A stretch of 64,000 nt of DNA from Siphonodentalium dalli (lineage: Eukaryota > Mollusca > Scaphopoda > Gadilida > Siphonodentaliidae). The translations under genes and the position numbers were made by a program. Below the pieces are notes generated by a model. That model saw only the letters and a list, made by a program, of their open reading frames with translations, was not told the DNA's origin and searched no databases. Shown one piece after another: positions 6,690-63,056 of this stretch. The stretch is from contig CP136065.1 in the NCBI GenBank assembly GCA_032622095.1, positions 248,621,474 to 248,685,473 on the forward strand. The letters run 5' to 3'. The stretch's first letter is position 1. Each line of letters starts with the position of its first letter.

Positions 6690-7067
6690 TTAACCCTTTA
6701 CCCAACAGAACGGCCCTGTGCCAATGCATTCTCTTATATATGCGAGTCGACCATAGGTCGCCTCGCATATATAAGAGAATGCATTGGCTTAACACATTAA
6801 AAATTATAAAATTGTTAAAGAATGTAAGAAAAAATAGTAAAAAGTGCCAATGCATTCTCTTATATATGCGAGGCGACCTATGGTCGACTCGCATATATAA
6901 GAGAATGCATTGGCACAGGGCATAACTGTAACCATCACAATGTGGTCAATGAGCCGGTTCCAATGATATCCATATTTGTATGGTTTTATTGAGACAGACC
7001 CAAGATAATTTAGGCTGTTGCAGCTTTATTTTGCCGTTTTTGGCCGGTTTGTTGGGTAAAGGGTTAA
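6690..7067 (+). mobile_element. TTAA-flanked MITE (CCCTTTACCC family), copy 1
   Basis: The element starts TTAACCCTTTACCCAACA and ends TGTTGGGTAAAGGGTTAA, giving perfect terminal inverted repeats and a TTAA at each end, as in piggyBac-type targets. Two 67-bp near-perfect palindromes lie inside at 6721-6787 and 6847-6913, and the second is the reverse complement of the first. There is no transposase frame. This is the only copy outside the 52-63 kb cluster. Confidence 0.9.
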
Positions 7068-52445: not shown

Positions 52446-52845
52446 TCAACCCTTTACCCAACAAACCGGCCAAAACCGGCCAAATAAAGCTTCAACAGCC
52501 TAAAATATCTTCGGTCTGTCTCAATAAAACCATACAAATATGGATATCATTGGAACCGGCTCCTTGACCACATTGTGATAGTTACAGTTATGCCCTGTGC
52601 CAATGCATTCTCTTATATATGCGAGTCGACCATAGGTCGCCTCGCATATATAAGAGAATGCTTTGGCCTAAACAAAATCTTTTTTTAACACTTTTTACCA
52701 TTTTTTCTTACATTCTTTAACAATTTTATAATTTTTAATGTGTTAAGCCAATGCATTCTCTTATATATGCGAGGCGACCTATGGTCGACTCGCATATATA
52801 AGAGAATGCATTGGCACAGGGCCCTTCTGTTGGGTAAAGGGTTAA
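52446..52845 (-). mobile_element. TTAA-type MITE (CCCTTTACCC family), copy 2
   Basis: It has the same ends as the 6.7-kb copy but the opposite orientation. The left target reads TCAA and the right TTAA, so one target copy has mutated. Palindromic cassettes lie at 52600-52666 and 52748-52814. Confidence 0.85.
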
Positions 52846-53128
52846 TAAAGTAGAGTTAATAATTTTAATTAAGGAACAGTTAACTTGAGCAACATATGTT
52901 GTTGAATTTTCATGAAATTTGTTATGGATGTTCACCACTATGAGTATGAGGACATTCAATGGAGTGTTCAATCGTTTTGTTCAGATTTTTTCATTGTAGA
53001 GTTATTCATCTTTGTTTATCTGAAAATTCAGATTTAGAGTCCGTATGCACCTGACAACAGTCCATCTCTTGTTATCTTTGGCCAAATGCACCAACAATCA
53101 TAATCAAATCCATATCTTTTGATTGCAG

Positions 53129-53276
53129 CCATCATGGAGACAGTTAATAGAGAGGAGAAGAAAACCAGGTCCCTGGTTATCGAGCCACTAATTGTCTTCG
53201 ACTCCTTCAAGAAAGCCCTATTCATCACAGGGACATTCCTGTTGGTTTTTGCAGCCTTCAGAAATTCCTTAACTTG
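53129..53276 (+). CDS. FAXDC2: FAXDC2-like coding exon 1
   Basis: The acceptor TTTTGATTGCAG is followed by CCATC and the ATG at 53134, and the donor is ACTTG then GTAAGC. The exon encodes residues 1-47 and two bases of a tryptophan codon. Residues 1-28 are charged and presumably cytosolic; residues 29-45 (LFITGTFLLVFAAFRNS) form the first membrane segment. Confidence 0.85.
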
Positions 53277-56200
53277 GTAAGCTACCAAAACTTTTTGTTT
53301 TATTATTCCCCCAACCCTCCGAAGGAGGATTCGTGTGTATATAGTGGAGACCTTCGTCCGTCCGTCCTTTGGTATGCCAGTAGACCAGCATTGTGGAATG
53401 GATCTCCACATAGTGCAGGTTTTGTCCGCCCTTGTTTGACTTGGGAATTTCTTAATTTTGTCTCTGTATGAACATTTCAGCTTGTACCTTGGGCATGGAT
53501 CATCGGATTTGATTGTGCTTTGCCTGTATTGATAGCCAGTTTAAGGGGAAAGGATACCCTCTTCTTGGATTTAGTAAATACAAAAACAATATCCATCCAT
53601 TGGCCATTGCCCACCATCTAAACTGAGTGCTTGGCATTGCATTTATTTTCATGTTGGCGATATAAATTTTGTAAGGTTGTGACTTTACTCATACAAACAT
53701 GGGACATAAGCTCTATTAACCCTTTACCCAACAAACCGGCCAAAACCGGCCAAATAAAGCTTCAACAGCCTAAAATATCTTCGGTCTGTCTCAATAGAAC
53801 CATACAAATATGGATATCATTGGAACCGGCTCCTTGACCACATTGTGATAGTTACAGTTATGCCCTGTGCCAATGCATTCTCTTATATATGCGAGTCGAC
53901 CATAGGTCGCCTCGCATATATAAGAGAATGCATTGGCCTAAAAAAATCTTTTTTTAACACTTTTTACCATTTTTTTCTTACATTCTTTAACAATTTTTAA
54001 TGTGTTAAGCCAATGCATTCTCTTATATATGCGAGGCGACCTATGGTCGACTCGCATATATAAGAGAATGCATTGGCACAGGGCCGTTCTGTTGGGTAAA
54101 GGGTTAATATCGATAACGCTTATGATGACTGAATGTTTGGTGTACTTGGTGAAATAAAGAACTTATAGAATGCAGCGTATAAAAAATGCACACCCTAAAT
54201 GGACATATACCAACCAAGAACTGGAATTTGGACTGATCCGCATTCAAATGATTACACAGCACTTGTGATAATAGAGAGTTTGGTGAATGTATGAAATCAT
54301 GTGCAGGTTTTAACCCTTTACCCAACAGAATGGCCCTGTGCCAATGCATTCTCTTATATATGCGAGTCGACCATACATGTAGGTCACCTTGCATATATAA
54401 GAGAATGCATTGGCTTAACATATTAAAAATGATAAAATTGTCGAAGAATGTGGAAAAATATTATAAAAATTGTTAAAAAATGTCCAAAAAATTATAAAAT
54501 GTAAGAATGTAAGAAAAAATGTAAGAAAAAATGGTAAAAAGTGTTAAAAAAAGAATTTTTAGGCCAATGCATTCTCTTATATATGCGAGGCGACCTATGG
54601 TTGACTCGCATATATAAGAGAATGCATTGGCACAGGGCATAACTGTAACCATCACAATGTGGTCAATGAACCGGTTCCAATGATATCCATATTTGTATGG
54701 TGTTATAGAGACAGACCGAAGATATTTTAGGCTGTTGAAGCTTTATTTGGGCGTTTTTGGCCGTTTTGTTGGGTAAAGGGTTAACTGGTAGCTTCCAGAA
54801 AATTTTGAAAACCCTATGCCACTGCATTCTCTTATATATGTGAGTCTCCCATTGGAGCCTCTCATATATAAGAGAATACATTGGCTGAACAATATTTACC
54901 TTGATCTTGTAAGCCAGTGAATTCTTGTTTATATGTGAGGCTCCCTATGTGAGACCCACATATATAAGAGAATGCACTGGCCCCGGATCTTTAATGCTGC
55001 AACAGCGCAACTTCCACCATGAAAGGGTTAATGTGACAATTGACATTGACTTCAATATTCATCCAATATGCATCCAATTAATGCGTTTATAAATAAACAG
55101 AGGGATTAGGCCACAGTTAATTAAAATTATTTTTAGCGTAAATCAAGAATTTTAACAACTGATGCATAATGCCGTGATTATTAATTATTATCGGGGTATT
55201 TATAGCCAATCAGGCGTGAGTGCCATTTAATAAACACTGCCCTGCAGAGATTCACTACATGTATATGGATATAAACAGTAACTAGGATTCAGCAAGCAAC
55301 TTGCTAGGACTACAGAACATGTTCATGCACTGCACAACTACCATAATGCCCTAAATAATCGACTCCTTAACCCTTTACCCAACAGAACGGCCCTGTGCCA
55401 ATGCATTCTCTTATATATGCGAGTCGACCATAGGTCGCCTCGCATATATAAGAGAATGCATTGGCTTAACACATTAAAAATTATAAAATTGTTAAAGAAT
55501 GTAAGAAAAAATGGTAAAAAGTGTTTAAAAAAGATTTTTTTTAGGCCAATGCATTCTCTTATATATGAGAGGCGACCTATGGTCGACTCGCATATATAAG
55601 AGAATGCATTGGCACAGGGCATAACTGTAACTATCACAATGTTGTCAAGGAGCCGGTTCCAATGATATCCATATTTGTATGGTTCTATTGAGACAGACCG
55701 AAGATATTTTAGGCTGTTGAAGCTTTATTTGGCCGGTTTTGGCCGTTTTGTTGGGTAAAGGGTTAACCACTGCAGAATTTTGGGTAACTTTTCAGGATTT
55801 AGTCAGAAATATGGCTTGTTGCCATTCATCGGAAAGCTCTCACTTAAGAGTTTTCCGATGAATGGCAACAAGCCATATTTCCGACTAAATCCTGAAAAAT
55901 TACCCATAATTCTGCTGTGGTTAAGGAGTCGATTACTGAGGGCATTGCTGTAGATTGATGAGATTGTCAATAACGGCAGTAGTTCTGAAAATGAACAAAA
56001 TCAGTTGATATACATGTACATGTAGTTAGTTATCACTTCATTGCGATCAAAATTTACAAAAAAAACTATTGTTAGGCCAATGTATTCTCTTATAATATAT
56101 GCGAGGCTCCCTATGGGACACACGCATATTTAAGATAATGCATTGGCACAGGGTTTTCGCAAAAATTCAGGAAGCTCCAGTCATGGAAGGGTTAATATTG

Positions 56201-59200
56201 TGCTGAAATTTGATTTCATTCCTAGGCAGATTCAGAGAATCTGGGGAGCATCAGGGAGTTTTTGGCAGAGACAGTGGGATAATATCTATGAACTGGCTGG
56301 CAACGATGACTATGTACTCGGGTTCTATGGTAAGTTGACAAATTAAATCCCTGTAAACTAAATTCTAAATCATTAGTTGATTGCATATATTTTTGATATC
56401 ATATATCTCCGGCTGATTTGACCAGGCTGTTGCTATTTGTGTCACCAGTCTGTTAGTGTTTTGTGTCACTTTAAGCTGTTATATGGCAATATCTGGTGTT
56501 ATATTTCGGCGATAATCGACTAGCAATCTCCTAGTTGACTAATTGCCATATTTTCCAGAAAGGTATAGATAAAAGTTTCTTTGGTAACTATCATTGCTGT
56601 ATGCAATATACTTCCATATTTATCATCGCCCATGTGTATAAAGGCACAATAAAGCACAGGCGCAGTGGACACCAAATACTGCCACCGGGTCGCGGTTATA
56701 TTTCAATTATACCATATGTATTTTATGAGTTTGTGGCACTGACACACCTGTCTTTGTTCTAAATATTTTCTAATTAATAAATATATTTTTTAAATTTAGT
56801 TAATACTGTTTATTGTACAGGAACCACAGTAAAATGTCATTCTATTTATTGTAGTAATCAAAAACTGTTCCACATACTATTTTAAATAATGTCCATATTG
56901 TAAATTATTTTCTCCATACCTGTATTCATAAGGTAATGAAAATAAAGAATTGAATACAGAAACCATTGTAATGGTAATACTGTTTATTGTAAAGGGACCC
57001 CTGTAATTGTAATACTGTTTATTGTAAAGGGACCCCTGTAATTGTAATACTGTTTATTGTAAAGGGACCCCTGTAATTGTAATACGTTTTATTCTAAAGG
57101 GACCTCTGTAATTGTAATACTGTTTATTGTAAAGGGACCCCTGTAATTGTAATACGTTTTATTCTAAAGGGACCCCTGTAATTGTAATACTGTTTATTGT
57201 AAAGGGACCCCTGTAATTGTAATACTGTTTATTGTAAAGGGACCCCTGTAATTGTAATACGTTTTATTCTAAAGGGACCCCTGTAATTGTAATACTGTTT
57301 ATTGTACAGGGACCACTGTAATTGTAATACTGTTTATTGTACAGGAACGACCTTTGTATCGAGCAGTGTCTTCTGGCTGGGTAATGCCACACTACTCTTA
57401 CTAGATGTTACGGGATATCCTCAGTTCCTCCTCAAATACAAGATTCAGGAAGATAAACACGTCAAGGTATCTTATTAAAGTCACTGCATTATAACTCCAC
57501 TTTTGGAAGAAAAATGGGCGTATACTGGATTGACTTTGTCCGTTCGTGGTACCATTGGGGCATCCGTCCGATTATCCGTTCGTCCGTGCATGTATCTCAG
57601 TCTTTGGTTATCGTATCTGAATGAAATTTGGTATGGAGCTTTGCCTGGGAAATTTCTAGCTTACTGGCCTGCCCGGATCATGTCCCAGCTTAACCCTTTT
57701 AGTGTCAGGGGCCGATCTCATCGGCCCTAAACCTACAAAATAAGTCTGTTAAAGCATAAGAATAAATTATTAAAATTGTAAAACATTGTAAAAAAAAATA
57801 AAAAATTGTTAGGCCAATGCATTCTCTTATATATGCGAGGCGACCTATGGTCGACTCACATATATAAGATAATGCATTGGCACAGGGTATATGGGTTGAT
57901 ACAAAAATCGGACCTGTCACTCAAAGGGTTAATTCAAGGGATTTAGCACCAAATCAGTCAGGCCTCAAATCATGGTGCCGGACATTTGCAGAATGAGGTC
58001 CCTAGAGGGTGAATTTAGTGACGCTACCCTGAACAGTGGGCTAGCATCACTAATTCACCCTCTGGGGACCTCATTCTGCTTTGGCCTCATCTCTCTGGAA
58101 ATTGAAAGTTTGTTTTTCTTTTTTAGTTTAGTTTCTTTACCGTATATTCCCATATATCCCCATCTCATATATGAGAAACAAATTTCCCGGTTCATGTATG
58201 AGAAACTGAGATTAATGCAAAATTCTCATTATGTATCACTTTAGGATACTATCTTTATAGTATGGTTAATGCCCAGACTTGTTAACTTCAGAATGTCAGA
58301 AATCGTGAGATTCCCCTCAAAAAATTGTGAGATTCCGGGAAAAATACTGAGATTTTTATAGCAGCTTAAAACTGCTCTAAAAAGTCATTTTAAAATCAAC
58401 ATTGCACTTTGTGCACTGTATTCATGTATTCCAATCATATTTGGTACTTTTGAAAATGATAAATTCCGTTTTGATACGAAGATTATGATGGGTTATGTTG
58501 TCTTCACTTTTTGTAAACCCAAATTGTACAGCCATTCATTATCATCGCAGAGCATTCAATAGCATATGAGAATGAAGCATGCTGTCTTTTTGTCATGTCC
58601 ATGCATATAAATTTTAAAAACATCCATGATTATTTTATTTTTCGACCACAGTTTGTATGTATCGCCTCACTTTGTTTCTCATTCTTACCGTGCGGTATCG
58701 GCGTAATAACGATTTACCGTACCGAATCAAAACTAAAAATACCGTATTTTCGGTAATGAAATTATTCATGCGTTGCCAACTTACATGTATGTGTGTAACC
58801 TTGTCACCGCGGCCGCGACATGAATTGTATGACTGTTAAGCGACGAGAATCGGATAATTATGATAACTCGGTGTAACAAGTCGGTACTATATATGTATCA
58901 GTCTATTGCAGCGTTGTTACATCAAGGTCACAGCTGGCCGGCGGCATCTTTGATCTTTACGACATAGTAATGACAATGTAACTAACATCATGACGTTTGA
59001 CTACTCGTAGCTGGAGCGTTATGTGTCAATTTTGGCATCCGCGCAAACTGGAATTTGCGTGGGCAACTCGGTACAGGCCCTAAGTCAATAATCTGTGTCC
59101 AAGTTGGAATCGAAGCACGTGTTATGGAGGGTCCCCATGGATTTTTTTAGGTGTCCTCAGGGTCCGGTATCCGGCCCCATTCCCAATGGAAAAAAGGCGC

Positions 59201-61922
59201 CTTTATTCCCAATTTTTAATCACCAAATTCCCAATTGCAGGCAGGTATATAATACCATCAGGTTTATTGAATAATTATCAATTTTTTCTGATGTTTTGTA
59301 CACTCAGTCGATCGATAAGCGGCTGAAAACCCGTAGTAAATCAGCGATATCGGGAGACTGCATCGTATAATGTACACTAGGCAACCTAACTATTAGCTTA
59401 ACATGCGAATTACCTCCCCTCTACCAGTCAGCGCATTTATGAAAGAGGAAGGATACCTCTAAATAAATTGCTGATTTATATAAAACATGTGTACAGTCGC
59501 GTTATACATCGAAAATTACGGTATTAGTACTATTTACTTGTGTGTAACAGTGATTAAATGAATTTTTCTAAAACATGGAAAATTCCCAATTTTTGTCTGT
59601 AAAGACACATTTTTCCCAATTCGAAGGGACCCGGACCCATTCCCAAAATAGGCAGAAAAATCCCTGGTCCCCGTGCACAACAAATTGAAACCCCCACCGG
59701 TTACTTTATAATTAGACGGTGATGCAATAGCGACTTGATATAGTTACGCACTGCAGATTATTTGATACAACCTGATCTTGTCAACTGCAAATCTTCTTGG
59801 CAAGTTGTGCACATACATTGTATATGTCGGTACATATATATATGTATATCCTACTATAAATTACTGTATTAAACATATGTACTTACTGGTATATTATAAA
59901 TATGTGCCTATATCTAACCAAAAAAAGATCGCGTGATACCTTTAAATTAACACTTGGGCACCATGTTCTAGCTTGCTGCTATAAATAAGAGGGACTCTTA
60001 TATACATGGATGGTATATTACGCTGCAAGGAGGAGAATAGGAACCACCTGTGGGTTTGAGCATCTGCCGTAGAAATTGCCATGGTTTGCCGATTTTAATG
60101 ACATCGCTCGAACGTTCATAAATTTGTGAATTGTGATCACTGATTAATACTCACAATTCTATTCACTCACGGAAATGTTACGAAAATCAAATTGACACGA
60201 AAAAATATTGTCATGCTCTTAATTCTTTTCAAAAGCCGTGCGACGGCAAGCGTGTAAATCATCAAAGAGATGTGTGAATATCACTTAATTGTGTAGGTCA
60301 TTTTGTTTCCTAATTTAGCTGTTGTCACGAATGTTGTAAATCCGTGGACCGTGCGCATATATACATGTATATTGTTCAGTTAAAACTTGAATTTAATACC
60401 GCAATTTACCGGGAATATCTGCTCTGGTCTTATAATTTAATAGCAATACTGATTACCGTACCGTTACCGAGGTAAATCGACGAAAATTTACCGATACCGA
60501 TACCGAGATTGAAATTTCAATACCGCCCATCTCTATCTCATTCCAACTTTTTTTTATGTTTGGGGGTAGTTGCCAATATATTTTGTAAACAATAGCATGT
60601 GCGTTGCTTACTATTAAAAATAGAGCATTGAATGTGCATTGAAAGTAGTTGATTTCATGTTCTTGCTTAAAACAAATATTTAATCAGAAACTAATACTAC
60701 CCATCAGGGTTCGCGCTGCCACTTGCCAAATTTGCCAATGGCAAAAATCATTCACATTTGGCAAAAAATATTTTATTTTGGCAAAAGTTTTGGCAAGTCA
60801 CTTTTTAATTCCTCAAGACAGTTGACAAATATTGGTCAATCAATACCATTCATTTTCAGTAAACTCTTACAATATAATTATATTTAAATTGTGGTGTTTT
60901 ATAATGTTTAGGAAAAGTTAACACCTCTATTAAGATGCAGTTAATCTGATAACTATTAGTATCAATGTGTGGAGGGATTACCCATGTTTAGTGTGGTGGT
61001 GGTTAAATAGCTAATCCTCTTGTGGTGTGCCCTTCTGATGAAGCAACCCTGCTATCATTTATTGTTCGGTGATTGGTTTATTGTTGTATAATAAACCACA
61101 ATAGAGATGTGAGTATAATTATTAGCTAACTGCTTTCTTATTGATATCAAAAGTCGTTCAAACTGCGAGTGTCGAAACATAAGACTTAATGTTGCAGAAA
61201 ATAGTACTATCATGGATATAATTTGGCAAATTCTAAAAGAATTTGGCAAAACAAAATTTCTTTTGGCAAATTATTTGGCAAAAGTAAATTTCAGTCCAGC
61301 ACGGACCCTGCAACCCATACTATTTTAGAAATGCATAAATTAGCATAATCTGTGTCAAAAGTGTGTGTTTGCAAATTACATTCGGCGCATTGTTGTTGGA
61401 CTACTGTGATGCCACATTCTTTTACGCCCAGCTTACTTCGCACTAATTAACACCAGCTACAGCTAGTTTGAACATTGTCTTTAACTGGGATTGGGTTTCA
61501 TCACCCGCTATATGTGTGCTTTGACATGTGTCAGCAGTATATACCCAACGGGCAGCTTAAACCATGCGATTTGCGTCAATGATGGTAAGGACGGGTGATG
61601 AGGTGTGAAACTATGAATCTCATGCAAAATTCGTGAAAGTTAATTAACATGTCTCTTAATGGCATCATTCAGACAAGCAACAGTGAATTAAACTTTGCTT
61701 CATCTCATTCCAGGTGGACATGGCAAAATTTAAGAAGACACTACTGTATGTGATTTTTGTCAGCCAAATAGCAGTTGGAATCCCATTTTTGTACTGCGCT
61801 TACCTCGCATTCCAGTGGAGAGGGTGCTCCTTCAGTGGTGATCTCCCAACCTTCCAGTGGGTGTTGCTTGAACTTCTTGTTTTCAGTATGGTGGAAGAAG
61901 TGGGATTCTACTATTCTCACAG
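53134..61922 (+). CDS. FAXDC2: Fatty acid hydroxylase domain-containing protein, FAXDC2-like (5' four coding exons; spans introns)
   Basis: Coding exons are 53134-53276, 56226-56329, 57345-57466 and 61714-61922, with phases 2, 1, 0 and 2, which join without a stop into 192 residues plus a split codon. The family comprises membrane di-iron hydroxylases of the endoplasmic reticulum related to sterol desaturase/C4-methyl oxidase enzymes. Marks seen are NSLTW joined to QIQRIWGASGSFW across intron 1, membrane segments near residues 29-45, 87-103, 131-152 and 169-188, and the approach to the first histidine box, EEVGFYYSH, with the exon ending inside the following arginine codon. The remaining histidine boxes must lie in exons past 64000. 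An acceptor (TTGATTGCAG) five bases before the ATG implies a separate 5' UTR exon upstream. The introns are loaded with TTAA MITEs. The match to FAXDC2 is by remembered motifs; a related paralogue is possible. Confidence 0.88.
53716..54107 (-). mobile_element. TTAA-flanked MITE (CCCTTTACCC family), copy 3
   Basis: TTAACCCTTTACCCAACA and its inverse are at the ends, with TTAA intact on both sides. Cassettes are at 53870-53936 and 54010-54076. It is very close to copy 2 in sequence and orientation and lies in intron 1. Confidence 0.9.
54310..54784 (+). mobile_element. TTAA-flanked MITE (CCCTTTACCC family), copy 4
   Basis: Ends and TTAA are as in the other copies. The first cassette (near 54341-54411) has a small insertion in its core (CATACATGTAGGTC), and the second is near 54563-54629. 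The spacer is longer, with repeated AAAATTATAAAATGTAAGAA text. Its right TTAA (54781-54784) is also the left TTAA of the next element. Confidence 0.9.
54781..55031. mobile_element. TTAA MITE of a second type (ends CATGAAAGGGTTAA)
   Basis: The right end is TTCCACCATGAAAGGGTTAA. The left end is shortened (TTAACTGGTAGCTTCCAG) but aligns with the end of the 56.1-kb relic. It contains two degraded cassettes, with cores CTCCCATTGGAG and GGCTCCCTATGTGAGACC. Confidence 0.7.
55343..55949. repeat. Large palindrome interrupted by a TTAA MITE
   Basis: Left-arm parts AATCGACTCCTTAA (ending 55370) and TTAACCACTGCAGAAT (from 55763) pair with one continuous right arm ending CTGTGGTTAAGGAGTCGATT (near 55914-55933). 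The inner arm continues through GGATTTAGTCAGAAATATGG and CTTGTTGCCATTCATCGG, with a small loop near 55834-55850. The arms are about 100 bp without the insert, with only a few mismatches. Confidence 0.9.
55367..55766 (+). mobile_element. TTAA-flanked MITE (CCCTTTACCC family), copy 5, inside a palindrome
   Basis: Standard ends with TTAA at 55367-55370 and 55763-55766. Cassettes are at 55398-55464 and 55546-55612. It splits the left arm of the palindrome described above. Confidence 0.92.
56077..56195. mobile_element. One-ended relic of a TTAA MITE with one cassette
   Basis: A degraded cassette (core GGCTCCCTATGGGACACAC) is followed by GCACAGGGTTTTCGC and the end TCATGGAAGGGTTAA. No left terminus was found. 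It lies 30 bp before the exon 2 acceptor, so the splice branch region probably lies in or next to the relic. Confidence 0.7.
56226..56329 (+). CDS. FAXDC2: FAXDC2-like coding exon 2
   Basis: The acceptor TTTCATTCCTAG and donor TTCTATG then GTAAGT give phases 2 and 1. The exon encodes QIQRIWGASGSFWQRQWDN, IYELAGNDDYVLGFY and the first base of a glycine codon. RxWGASGxFWxxQW is a strongly conserved stretch of the family. Choosing an AG four bases further on would create a stop, which fixes the acceptor. Confidence 0.88.
56801..57344. repeat. 35-bp minisatellite made of splice-acceptor-like units
   Basis: Units CTGTAATTGTAATACTGTTT then ATTGTAAAGGGACCC repeat every 35 bp from about 56976 to 57344, about ten times, with one sub-type reading CGTTTTATTCTAAAGG. 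A single separate copy, TAATACTGTTTATTGTACAG, ends at 56820. The last unit ends TTATTGTACAG and is the real acceptor of exon 3. Confidence 0.92.
57345..57466 (+). CDS. FAXDC2: FAXDC2-like coding exon 3
   Basis: The acceptor TTATTGTACAG gives phase 1 and the donor GTCAAG then GTATCT gives phase 0. The exon encodes TTFVSSSVFWLGNATLLLLD, VTGYPQFLLKYKIQEDKHVK. The first half is a membrane segment; D-x-T-G-x-P-x-F-L-x-K-Y-K-I-Q is a family signature. Confidence 0.88.
57690..57932 (+). mobile_element. TTAA MITE of a third type with one cassette
   Basis: The ends are TTAACCCTTTTAGTGTCAGG and the inverse of its right end, CCTGTCACTCAAAGGGTTAA, an imperfect inverted pair of about 20 bp. Only the first ten bases are like the main family. 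One cassette is at about 57814-57880. It lies in intron 3. Confidence 0.85.
57975..58085. repeat. Hairpin of the GAGGTCCC...GGGTGAAT family
   Basis: TTTGCAGAATGAGGTCCCTA, GAGGGTGAATTTAGTGACGC and the inverse ATTCACCCTCTGGGGACCTC, ATTCTGC form a stem of about 40 bp around CTGAACAGTGGGC. Confidence 0.8.
58640..60540. mobile_element. Possible decayed transposon with TACCG-rich flanks; gene-free intron
   Basis: TACCGTGCGGTATCGGC and ACCGTATTTTCGGTAATG near 58687-58758 face ATTACCGTACCGTTACCGAG and TTTACCGATACCGATACCG near 60452-60502, and the right side closes with CCGCCCATCTCT, a hAT-like end in inverse. A second repeat inside (about 59125-59668) has CAGGGATTTTT-like ends and many TTCCCAA phrases. 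Boundaries and target duplications were not found. Confidence 0.35.
60697..61318. mobile_element. Non-autonomous hAT-type element with TTTGGCAAA motifs
   Basis: The element (60705-61310, 606 bp) starts CAGGGTTCGCGCTG and ends CAGCACGGACCCTG, an inverted pair with two mismatches. The flanks CTACCCAT and CAACCCAT agree at 7 of 8 bases, fitting an 8-bp hAT target duplication. Clusters of TTTGGCAAA and its variants occupy both ends, as expected of subterminal transposase sites. No transposase is encoded. It lies in intron 3. Confidence 0.82.
61714..61922 (+). CDS. FAXDC2: FAXDC2-like coding exon 4
   Basis: The acceptor CATTCCAG gives phase 0, and the donor CTCACAG then GTTTGT splits an arginine codon. 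It encodes VDMAKFKKTLLYVIFVSQIA, a hydrophobic span to about residue 152, then SGDLPTFQWVLLELLVFSM and VEEVGFYYSH. The final histidine should be the first ligand of the family's HxxxH box, cut by the intron. Confidence 0.88.
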
Positions 61923-61950
61923 GTTTGTCTCTTAACGAAATATTCTTCCA

Positions 61951-62420
61951 TTAACCCTTTACCCAACAGAACGGCCCTGTGCCAATGCATTCTCTTATAT
62001 ATGCGAGTCGACCATAGGTCGCCTCGCATATATAAGAGAATGCATTGGCTTAACACATATTAAAAATGATAAAATTGTCAAAGAATGTAGAAAAGTATTA
62101 TAAAAATTATAAAATATTATAAAAATTGTTAAAAAATGTAAGAAAAAATTATAAAATTGTTAAAGAATGTAAGAAAAAATGGTAAAGAAATTTTTTAGGC
62201 CAATGCATTCTCTTATATATGCGAGGCGACCTATGGTCGATTCGCATATATAAGAGAATGCATTGGCACAGGGCATAACTGTAACTATCACAATGTGGTC
62301 AATGAACCGGTTCCAATGATATCCATATTTGTATGGTTCTATTGAGACAGACCGAAGATATTTTAGGCTGTTGAAGCTTTATTTGGCCGTTTTTGGCCGG
62401 TTTGTTGGGTAAAGGGTTAA
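61951..62420 (+). mobile_element. TTAA-flanked MITE (CCCTTTACCC family), copy 6
   Basis: Perfect ends and TTAA at 61951-61954 and 62417-62420. Cassettes are at 61981-62047 and about 62200-62267. The spacer is expanded with AAAATTATAAAATATTAT text, much as in copy 4. It starts only 29 bp after the exon 4 donor. Confidence 0.92.
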
Positions 62421-62439
62421 TTAAGAGATTTATCCCACA

Positions 62440-62517
62440 GGGAGCCTCACAGAGATGGAAGCATGCACTGCAGAGTGTCGTCTGCTCCAGTCTATGTGGG
62501 GCTCTATAAAGGGTTAA
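62440..62517. repeat. Relic with GTGTCGTCTGCTCCAG hairpin and AAAGGGTTAA end
   Basis: GGGAGCCTCACAGAGATGGA and CTATGTGGGGCTCTATAAAG form an imperfect stem around GTGTCGTCTGCTC. A second copy of the same hairpin lies inside the next element (about 62780-62855). Confidence 0.6.
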
Positions 62518-62623
62518 AATAATTTTTAGTGAGAATCAACATGAGAACAAAACTATAGAAGAAGTACAGGAAATCAAGATATTTATGGCCATATCAAATC
62601 CAGTCGTAAGTCAGGATTTTTTA

Positions 62624-62994
62624 TACCCTGTGCCAATGCATTCTCTTATATATGCGAGTCGACCATAGGTCGCCTCGCATATATAAGAGAATGCATTGGC
62701 CTAACAATTTTTTATCATTTTTTTTAAATAAATGTTTCTTACAATTTTTAGGACATAAAATAAAAAACATCCATTACCCTGCTGGGAGCCCCACACATAT
62801 ATAGAAGCATATAGAAGAGTGTCGTCTGCTCATGTTTGTCTGGGGCTCTGCATGGGTGAAATTATAAAATTGTTAAAGAATACAAGAACAAATTATTAAA
62901 ATTGTAAAAAATTGTTAGGCCAATGCATTCTCTTATATATGCGAGGCGACCTATGGTCGACTTGCATATATAAGAGAATGCATTGGCACAGGGT
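62624..62994 (+). mobile_element. MITE with ACCCTGTGCCAATGC ends and two cassettes
   Basis: ACCCTGTGCCAATGCATTCT on the left and its inverse ending GGCACAGGGT on the right form the ends, so here the cassettes themselves are terminal (about 62632-62698 and 62920-62987). No TTAA is adjacent. The spacer contains the GTGTCGTCTGCTC hairpin. Confidence 0.75.
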
Positions 62995-63056
62995 CACCCA
63001 TGATATATCAAGTCAAAACTATAGAAGTACAGGAAATCAAGATATTTGGAGAATCG

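Follow-up and report, generated by a model that had tools for sequence, protein, structure and literature searches.

One palindromic cassette in miniature inverted-repeat transposable elements with unlike ends in Siphonodentalium dalli

How does one 67-bp palindrome come to lie in transposable elements whose ends differ? The question was raised by a 64,000-nt stretch of the genome of the scaphopod Siphonodentalium dalli (assembly GCA_032622095.1, contig CP136065.1, positions 248,621,474 to 248,685,473 of the forward strand; this whole stretch is called the window), in which the palindrome, or cassette, recurs in several backbones of miniature inverted-repeat transposable elements (MITEs). MITE families are usually recognized by their common ends, with the insides varying; here, the inside is common and the ends vary. 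The answer that we favor, with a probability of roughly 0.55, is that the cassette forms the core of an approximately 125–135-bp module that was passed between lineages of nonautonomous DNA transposons and was probably kept for aiding their copying.

In its modern form, the cassette has a 26-bp stem that a T.C mismatch separates from a 5-bp inner stem (CGACC/GGTCG), which closes an ATA loop; both stems had been described in the original prediction. A cassette and its edges, folded as single-stranded DNA, reached −36.1 kcal/mol (z = −14.9), a value that none of 200 shuffles equaled, and a whole element of the PAC family folded as RNA gave z = −24.5. The shared unit extends beyond the palindrome, with CCCTGTG on one side and an AT-rich tail of approximately 50–60 bp on the other, and its orientation is fixed: the CCCTGTG side faces the element end. 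Of 132 full modern cassettes, 131 had CCCTGTG outside the T-bearing arm and 2 had it outside the other arm, with two mismatches allowed. The ACCCTG type that had been listed among the backbone ends belongs to this constant outer edge and is no element end. Inward, the module of the modern backbones runs into CCTAACAATTTTTTACAATTTTAATAATTTTTTCTTGTATTCTTTAACA or a related AT-rich tail.

The cassette consensus was identical at 67 of 67 positions in the short side of PAC (n = 38), the long side of PAC (n = 32), GAGTG (n = 13), and GTGACCC (n = 39), duplicated loci being included in this comparison. The inner tails of PAC, GTGACCC, and GAGTG also aligned with one another (scores of 39, 29, and 42 vs. 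shuffle maxima of 24, 24, and 28). No similarity was found among the outer parts of PAC, GTGACCC, GAGTG, and an older family, for which some strings (PAC short side, GAGTG, and CCATGACTGG) were typed from the copies seen: each of the nine comparisons was matched or beaten by 80–292 of 300 shuffles, and the only significant pair was formed by the two ends of PAC itself. The outer parts do not align and so gave no basis for separate trees, but the full agreement between cassette and backbone that would have refuted the original prediction is not seen for the modern cassette, whose consensus is the same in three unrelated backbones.

The backbones also differ in their target duplications. PAC elements have CCCTTTACCC ends and two cassettes, GAGTG elements (CCCTTTGAGTGCCAGG) have one cassette, and the older family ends in CCCTTCCATGACTGG / CCCTTTCATGATGG; all three have TTAA target duplications. 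With CCC..GGG terminal inverted repeats in the PAC, GAGTG, and CCATGACTGG backbones, these are piggyBac-like MITEs. GTGACCC elements (GTGACCCGCCATATCAAATCCAGTCG and GTGACCCGCCATATC ends, two cassettes) have a 4-bp duplication that is mostly ATAT. Among 28 GTGACCC copies with both ends, 7 belonged to loci already counted; in the 21 kept, one per locus, the 4-bp flanks were identical in 17 (ATAT, ATTT, AATT, AAAT, and ATGT) vs. 159 of 420 in the swapped-flank control, and where the left flank was other than ATAT, the flanks agreed in 6 of 8. No identical flank pair was TTAA, and a single one-sided TTAA was present among the 21 loci. Because three backbones use TTAA and the fourth, with GTGACCCGCCATATC ends, duplicates a different 4-bp target, the module crosses transposon types, and a simple diverged MITE family therefore does not explain it. 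The original claim that unlike backbones share one cassette was thus borne out, and is stronger than first stated because one backbone belongs to a family with another target duplication and because the ends of the backbones are dissimilar.

In the window, CCAATGCATTCTC had 51 matches with at most three mismatches, vs. 22.2 ± 4.4 in shuffles, and none of 100 shuffles reached this count. As predicted, we counted 18 cassettes, namely those at 6721 and 6847 and 16 spanning 52600–62986. This is approximately three times the genome mean (5.9 expected per 64 kb from the junction count), and in the 10.5-kb interval 16 were observed vs. 0.97 expected. The cassettes at 54819, 54914, and 56077 are of an older, diverged type. 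The elements that carry the cassettes, and one example of the module, are as follows.

6694–7063, minus strand: PAC MITE with CCCTTTACCC ends; TTAA at 6690–6693 and 7064–7067; modern cassettes at 6721–6787 and 6847–6913, exact reverse complements.
52450–52841, plus strand: PAC MITE; TCAA at 52446–52449 and TTAA at 52842–52845; modern cassettes at 52600–52666 and 52748–52814.
53720–54103, plus strand: PAC MITE; TTAA at 53716–53719 and 54104–54107; modern cassettes at 53870–53936 and 54010–54076, exact reverse complements.
53863–53989, plus strand: example of the module within a PAC copy; CCCTGTG at 53863–53869, palindrome at 53870–53936, then the AT-rich inner tail.
54314–54780, minus strand: PAC MITE; TTAA on each side; cassettes at 54341–54413 (73 bases) and 54564–54630.
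54785–55027, plus strand: relic of the older TTAA family with CCATGACTGG/CATGATGG ends; two old-type cassettes at 54819–54884 and 54914–54980.
55371–55762, minus strand: PAC MITE; TTAA at 55367–55370 and 55763–55766; modern cassettes at 55398–55464 and 55546–55612.
56077–56191, minus strand: right part of an old-family (CCATGACTGG) element; one old-type cassette at 56077–56146; TTAA at 56192–56195.
57694–57928, minus strand: GAGTG-type TTAA MITE, CCCTTTTAGTGTCAGG / CCTGTCACTCAAAGGG; TTAA at 57690–57693 and 57929–57932; single modern cassette at 57814–57880.
61955–62416, minus strand: PAC MITE; TTAA at 61951–61954 and 62417–62420; modern cassettes at 61982–62048 and 62200–62266.
62590–63010, plus strand: apparent damaged GTGACCC-family element with rearranged ends; modern cassettes at 62633–62699 and 62920–62986; inner GGAGCCCC..GGGGCTC block.

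The TTAA duplication was present on both sides in five of the six PAC copies of the window (TCAA/TTAA in the sixth) and in the GAGTG copy. Compared by eye with complete copies, the element at approximately 62,590–63,010 looks like a damaged member of the GTGACCC family, not a TTAA-using one. The cassettes of a full element had been predicted to be exact reverse complements, which held for just two of the seven paired elements; one base differed in four, and the lengths differed in one (73 vs. 67 bases). Three plausible exons are open in the window (approximately 53136–53278, 56228–56330, and 61708–61922), with several cassette copies between them. These exons, joined and translated, had no Pfam match at E ≤ 1, and the label of a FAXDC2-like locus was left unconfirmed.

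Genome-wide (2.23 Gb in nine contigs), the exact 67-mer was found 44,706 + 44,595 = 89,301 times and a 23-base cassette arm 147,703 + 147,543 times. The outer junction, CCCTGTG plus CCAATGCATTCTC with one mismatch allowed, was found 102,346 + 101,892 = 204,238 times; the reversed-pattern controls gave 0. TTAACCC..cassette junctions numbered 47,509, and the 100 of these that were listed comprised 94 PAC, 1 rearranged PAC, 4 old-family, and 1 GAGTG. There were 50,558 junctions of the long side of PAC, 17,358 of GAGTG, and 12,913 of GTGACCC, along with 17,723 exact GTGACCC ends and 7,382 occurrences of TTAACCCTTCCATGACTGGAGCTT, which represents one side only of the old CCATGACTGG-type backbone. 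The junction counts, which differ in the mismatches allowed and so are not strictly additive, jointly amount to approximately 63% of the 204,238. In viral contigs, a 22-mer of the arm had no exact match.

Old and modern cassettes were compared in a catalog of 210 hits from the fetched loci and the window (a few partial hits doubled), 163 of them full length. Elements with CCATGACTGG ends carry an old-type inner stem, CTCCC-ATA-GGGAG, and inner stems of intermediate kind were present in L064 and L067. Three full cassettes classed as young had been sorted into the old family: L030 and L036 are atypical members, and L064 is intermediate. Between the inner stems CTCCC/GGGAG and CGACC/GGTCG, the pairs 29.39 and 30.38 changed on both sides, giving two compensated differences. 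Cells changed on both sides numbered 51 vs. 17.5 in shuffles (2–28 when slid), and the both-side cells, the paired cells, and the covariation score each exceeded all 500 shuffles. The mismatch was itself conserved: among gap-free cassettes, all 122 modern and all 23 old ones had kept the T on its arm, and 120 and 21 of them, respectively, had kept the full T.C mismatch. In one hybrid locus, L030, an old-family end similar to CATGATGG (score 25 vs. 13 for the best of 1000 shuffles) is joined to a modern cassette; the locus also carries a long AT-rich repeat tail.

Part of the palindrome was lost by internal deletion in three loci (L024:963–1012, L026:925–974, and L034:373–400), as expected of hairpin-prone DNA. 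Old-type cassettes were also seen in tandem at a 97-bp spacing, with eight units, the last partial, in L033:875–1613; a further array of the same period lies at C1:6733169–6733577. Such arrays are a possible step from MITE toward satellite DNA.

Is the palindrome maintained in copies that have already been inserted? Changes at paired positions in 122 modern cassettes numbered 60 (3,782 pair cells); all 60 were on one arm, and none was matched on the other. The PAC set for mutation counts comprised 33 of 38 copies found, after 3 were dropped as second copies of a duplicated block and 2 because of a repeated flank; the spacers of 27 were used. Mutations private to one PAC copy were equally frequent in the backbone (0.70%), cassette (0.63%), and spacer (0.73%). 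Because none of the 60 changes was matched and the private rates in PAC were equal, arm-to-arm repair of resident copies is unsupported, and arm-to-arm conversion was rejected as a main force acting on them. Columns with variants shared by at least two PAC copies were, by comparison, rarer in the cassette (2 of 67) than in the spacer (16 of 81; P = 0.0019), with 11 of 143 in the backbone.

GTGACCC copies were sorted by side into 27 left and 21 right, with 2 unsorted, and 23 and 20 were kept. In the left set, shared-variant columns were more frequent in the nonselected part of the end than in the cassette (7 of 26 vs. 4 of 67; P = 0.0096), and in the right set, the cassette (2 of 67) had fewer than the inner part (17 of 75; P = 0.00045) and the end (4 of 26; P = 0.049). 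In GAGTG, where 8 of 18 copies were usable, shared-variant columns were 0 of 54 in the cassette vs. 11 of 118 elsewhere (P = 0.018), and private mutations 1.2% vs. 4.3% (P = 0.0017); T-runs and poorly aligning AT-rich tails may exaggerate the mutation rates of the neighboring parts. The lower frequency of shared variants in the cassette than in several neighboring parts suggests that propagating lineages keep it. The earlier proposal that the palindrome is exchanged, converted, or selected as a unit accordingly lost its second term for resident copies, with 0 of 60 changes matched and equal private rates in PAC cassette and backbone, and retained selection only for lineages still copying themselves, with mixed significance.

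In the history that we favor, the older TTAA family with CCCTTCCATGACTGG / CCCTTTCATGATGG ends carries an older version of the cassette, the direction probably being from old to modern. At least three unrelated MITE lineages (PAC, GAGTG, and GTGACCC) carry a modified version in the same outward orientation, and the junctions total approximately 200,000. Transfer probably occurred by template switching or gap repair between close or nested copies, after which a master with new ends would amplify. Such nesting was observed in L056, where a GTGACCC copy lies inside an old-family palindrome (L057 is the same locus duplicated). The mutation pattern points to a palindrome that is probably kept as a cis-acting hairpin or protein-binding site aiding copying; repair of resident copies would not be what keeps it.

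Several observations weigh against this reading. No empty backbone was found and no transfer event was caught, and the hybrid is a single locus. Two of five covariation measures stayed at shuffle level (both-side pairs, 5 vs. 4.7; further pair types, 17 vs. 16.5), and the split into old and modern cassettes inflates the remaining ones. Among 100 listed of the 10,873 old or one-step matches, one-step changes of pair 29.39 were uncompensated in eight cases (six G.A, four of them from one tandem array, and two T.C) vs. compensated in one (G.C). Shared-variant columns did not differ significantly between PAC backbone and cassette (P = 0.23); by cells, a smaller set of 22 PAC copies had given P = 1e−5 for this contrast, which was lost by columns with 33 copies, and the weaker, column-based result was adopted. 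In the left GTGACCC set, the inner part (7 of 75) did not differ from the cassette (4 of 67; P = 0.54), and private mutations in the GTGACCC cassettes (1.04% and 0.90%) were fewer than in their neighbors (1.70–1.96%; P from 0.05 to 0.27 each). GTGACCC and GAGTG thus leave some room for protection of resident copies, of which PAC shows none, and conversion between copies may play a part in GTGACCC. Approximately 37% of the 204,238 junctions have no assigned backbone, and the fetched MITEs, picked by exact matches, represent the window and a single contig, of which the first 34 Mb were covered.

Among other explanations, it is possible, if on balance unlikely, that the module is a selfish passenger of MITEs that captures the ends of unrelated transposon superfamilies; it would be amplified by piggyBac-type and non-piggyBac transposases alike, with selection bearing less on resident copies than on how well the module is copied. 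We consider it unlikely that the module is, or was, a transposon of its own (CCCTGTG..CACAGGG, with the palindrome as terminal repeat) that inserted into MITEs and survives mainly in composites. Its constant outer edge (131 of 132), the inverted cassette pairs of PAC and GTGACCC, the cassettes outside recognizable backbones in L036 and L071, and a T-run/TA..TA/A-run that by eye surrounds the pair in GTGACCC elements would all fit such an origin, but the flanks of the PAC pair differ (TTATG / CCGTT), GAGTG has a single module, and the copies viewed by eye showed no target duplication specific to the module, no systematic search for standalone copies having been made. A single diverged family, in which a common ancestor's ends mutated around a constrained cassette, is decidedly improbable: CCCTGTG does stand beside the palindrome in all four backbones, the inner tails of the three modern ones are related, and three backbones have TTAA and CCC..GGG tips in common, but the outer parts are similar only at chance level, the GTGACCC target duplication is different, and the three modern backbones have an identical cassette consensus while resident PAC copies show no sign of constraint. 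Least probable is that the hairpins act as RNA, with intronic copies yielding small RNAs or altering host transcripts. The extreme predicted stability (z = −14.9 as DNA; z = −24.5 for the whole PAC element as RNA) and the several copies between putative exons speak for such a role; however, no Rfam family was reached at its curated cut-off (0 of 53 listed; best, 72.5 bits vs. 211 needed), subthreshold microRNA matches may arise from any long hairpin, and PAC copies decay at the pace of their backbone.

That the cassette supplies a subterminal palindrome for the two C-terminal zinc domains of a piggyBac transposase is quite unlikely, despite some points of contact with that system. piggyBac and piggyBat are reported to have a subterminal palindrome that is bound by paired cysteine-rich domains (CRDs), and the cassette is likewise a palindrome close to the element end (PMC11707139). 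At 67 bp, and with a conserved mismatch and loop, it differs from the palindrome described there. The genome holds at least 128 piggyBac-domain matches, some elements giving two, from 116 scored of 649 candidates, and many lie in open frames of approximately 600 residues. One piggyBac family has perfect 16-bp CCCTTTATCTGCTATA repeats; L004/L008 end in the GAGTG-like TTAACACGTTGAGTGCCGG; and L019 and L133, which have a TTAACCCTTTACCCATCACATCGG end in common and are 98.6% identical over 3.7 kb, end in CCCTTTACCCATCA, with 13 of 14 positions as in PAC. The cassette was present in none of the 30 piggyBac loci read (4.2–4.6 kb each), by which it was rejected as part of an autonomous piggyBac, and no exact autonomous partner of PAC, GAGTG, or the CCATGACTGG backbone was found among them. 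Moreover, the same cassette occurs in a family with a target other than TTAA, and a role with piggyBac only is insufficient because it leaves GTGACCC unexplained. The inference from TTAA to piggyBac-type enzymes is supported for three backbones, with piggyBac transposases in long open frames present in the genome, and does not extend to GTGACCC, whose target is not TTAA.

Compared with known systems, PAC, GAGTG, and the older CCATGACTGG family fit piggyBac-type MITEs (TTAA and CCC..GGG tips), and GTGACCC does not. To our knowledge, rolling-circle elements make no target duplications; the duplications seen here (TTAA, and 4 bp, mostly ATAT) run counter to the insertion without duplication that characterizes Helitrons and Helentrons. 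The same duplications set these MITEs apart from the nonautonomous Helentron elements of oysters, which are reported to carry satellite-like arrays and resemble them in having short tandem units within mobile elements, here the 97-bp array of L033 (PMC7492417). ATon elements, which are reported to insert at AT dinucleotides, were set aside (PMC3422177). The nearest counterpart of the shared module is the set of highly conserved domains (CORE, V, Deu, and others) common to unrelated families of short interspersed elements (SINEs), the V domain also lying inside the MITE MER6 (PMC6887750). In both cases, a central block is conserved across nonautonomous elements of different origin, and once, in MER6, inside a DNA-transposon MITE. 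Unlike the SINE domains, the block described here is a palindrome; it is very abundant, lies close to the element ends with a fixed orientation, and is common to DNA-transposon MITEs whose target duplications are of two kinds. SINE domains are carried by elements with a head derived from an RNA gene and a LINE-type tail; the carriers found here have target duplications and inverted repeats like those of DNA transposons. A literature search of limited reach, over titles and opening lines of abstracts, found no description of this palindrome or of a palindromic core common to MITEs with different ends. Conserved SINE blocks are known and the cause of their conservation is still argued; a counterpart in MITEs, common to families that differ in target duplication and present at approximately 200,000 sites, would make the question testable, as so many copies allow mutations that follow insertion to be told apart from changes in lineages that propagate. 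A first look suggests that it is chiefly the propagating lineages that keep the block. A caution for classification is that sorting MITEs by internal sequence and sorting them by ends can disagree.

A second block, GGAGCCCC..AGCAGACGACA..GGGGCTC, was found in different MITE backbones (window 62421–62513; the GTGACCC elements L042 and L048; L062; and L065–L066), and module sharing may therefore extend beyond the palindrome. At 55340–55950 of the window, a PAC element adjoins a strongly palindromic TTAA element (CCACTGCAGAATT.., 55767–55920), with the TTAA in common, and the two are flanked by inverted copies of AATCGACTCC. L024 has a similar layout at approximately 900–1400, so the edge of the CCACTGCAGAATT.. 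element may be a recurrent target.

On a larger scale, cassettes near the start of contig C1 follow one another at a period of approximately 11.17 kb over approximately 100 kb (C1:785,000–926,000), and at approximately 14.56 kb further upstream; these are large tandem repeats. Cassette positions at approximately 5.93–6.05 Mb of C1 recur with near-equal spacing at 6.38–6.46 Mb, approximately 449 kb apart, and five GTGACCC loci were found again, inverted, elsewhere on C1 (L042/L048, L043/L046, L045/L047, L055/L058, and L056/L057). These recurring blocks and loci are either segmental duplications or haplotypes that the assembly left uncollapsed.

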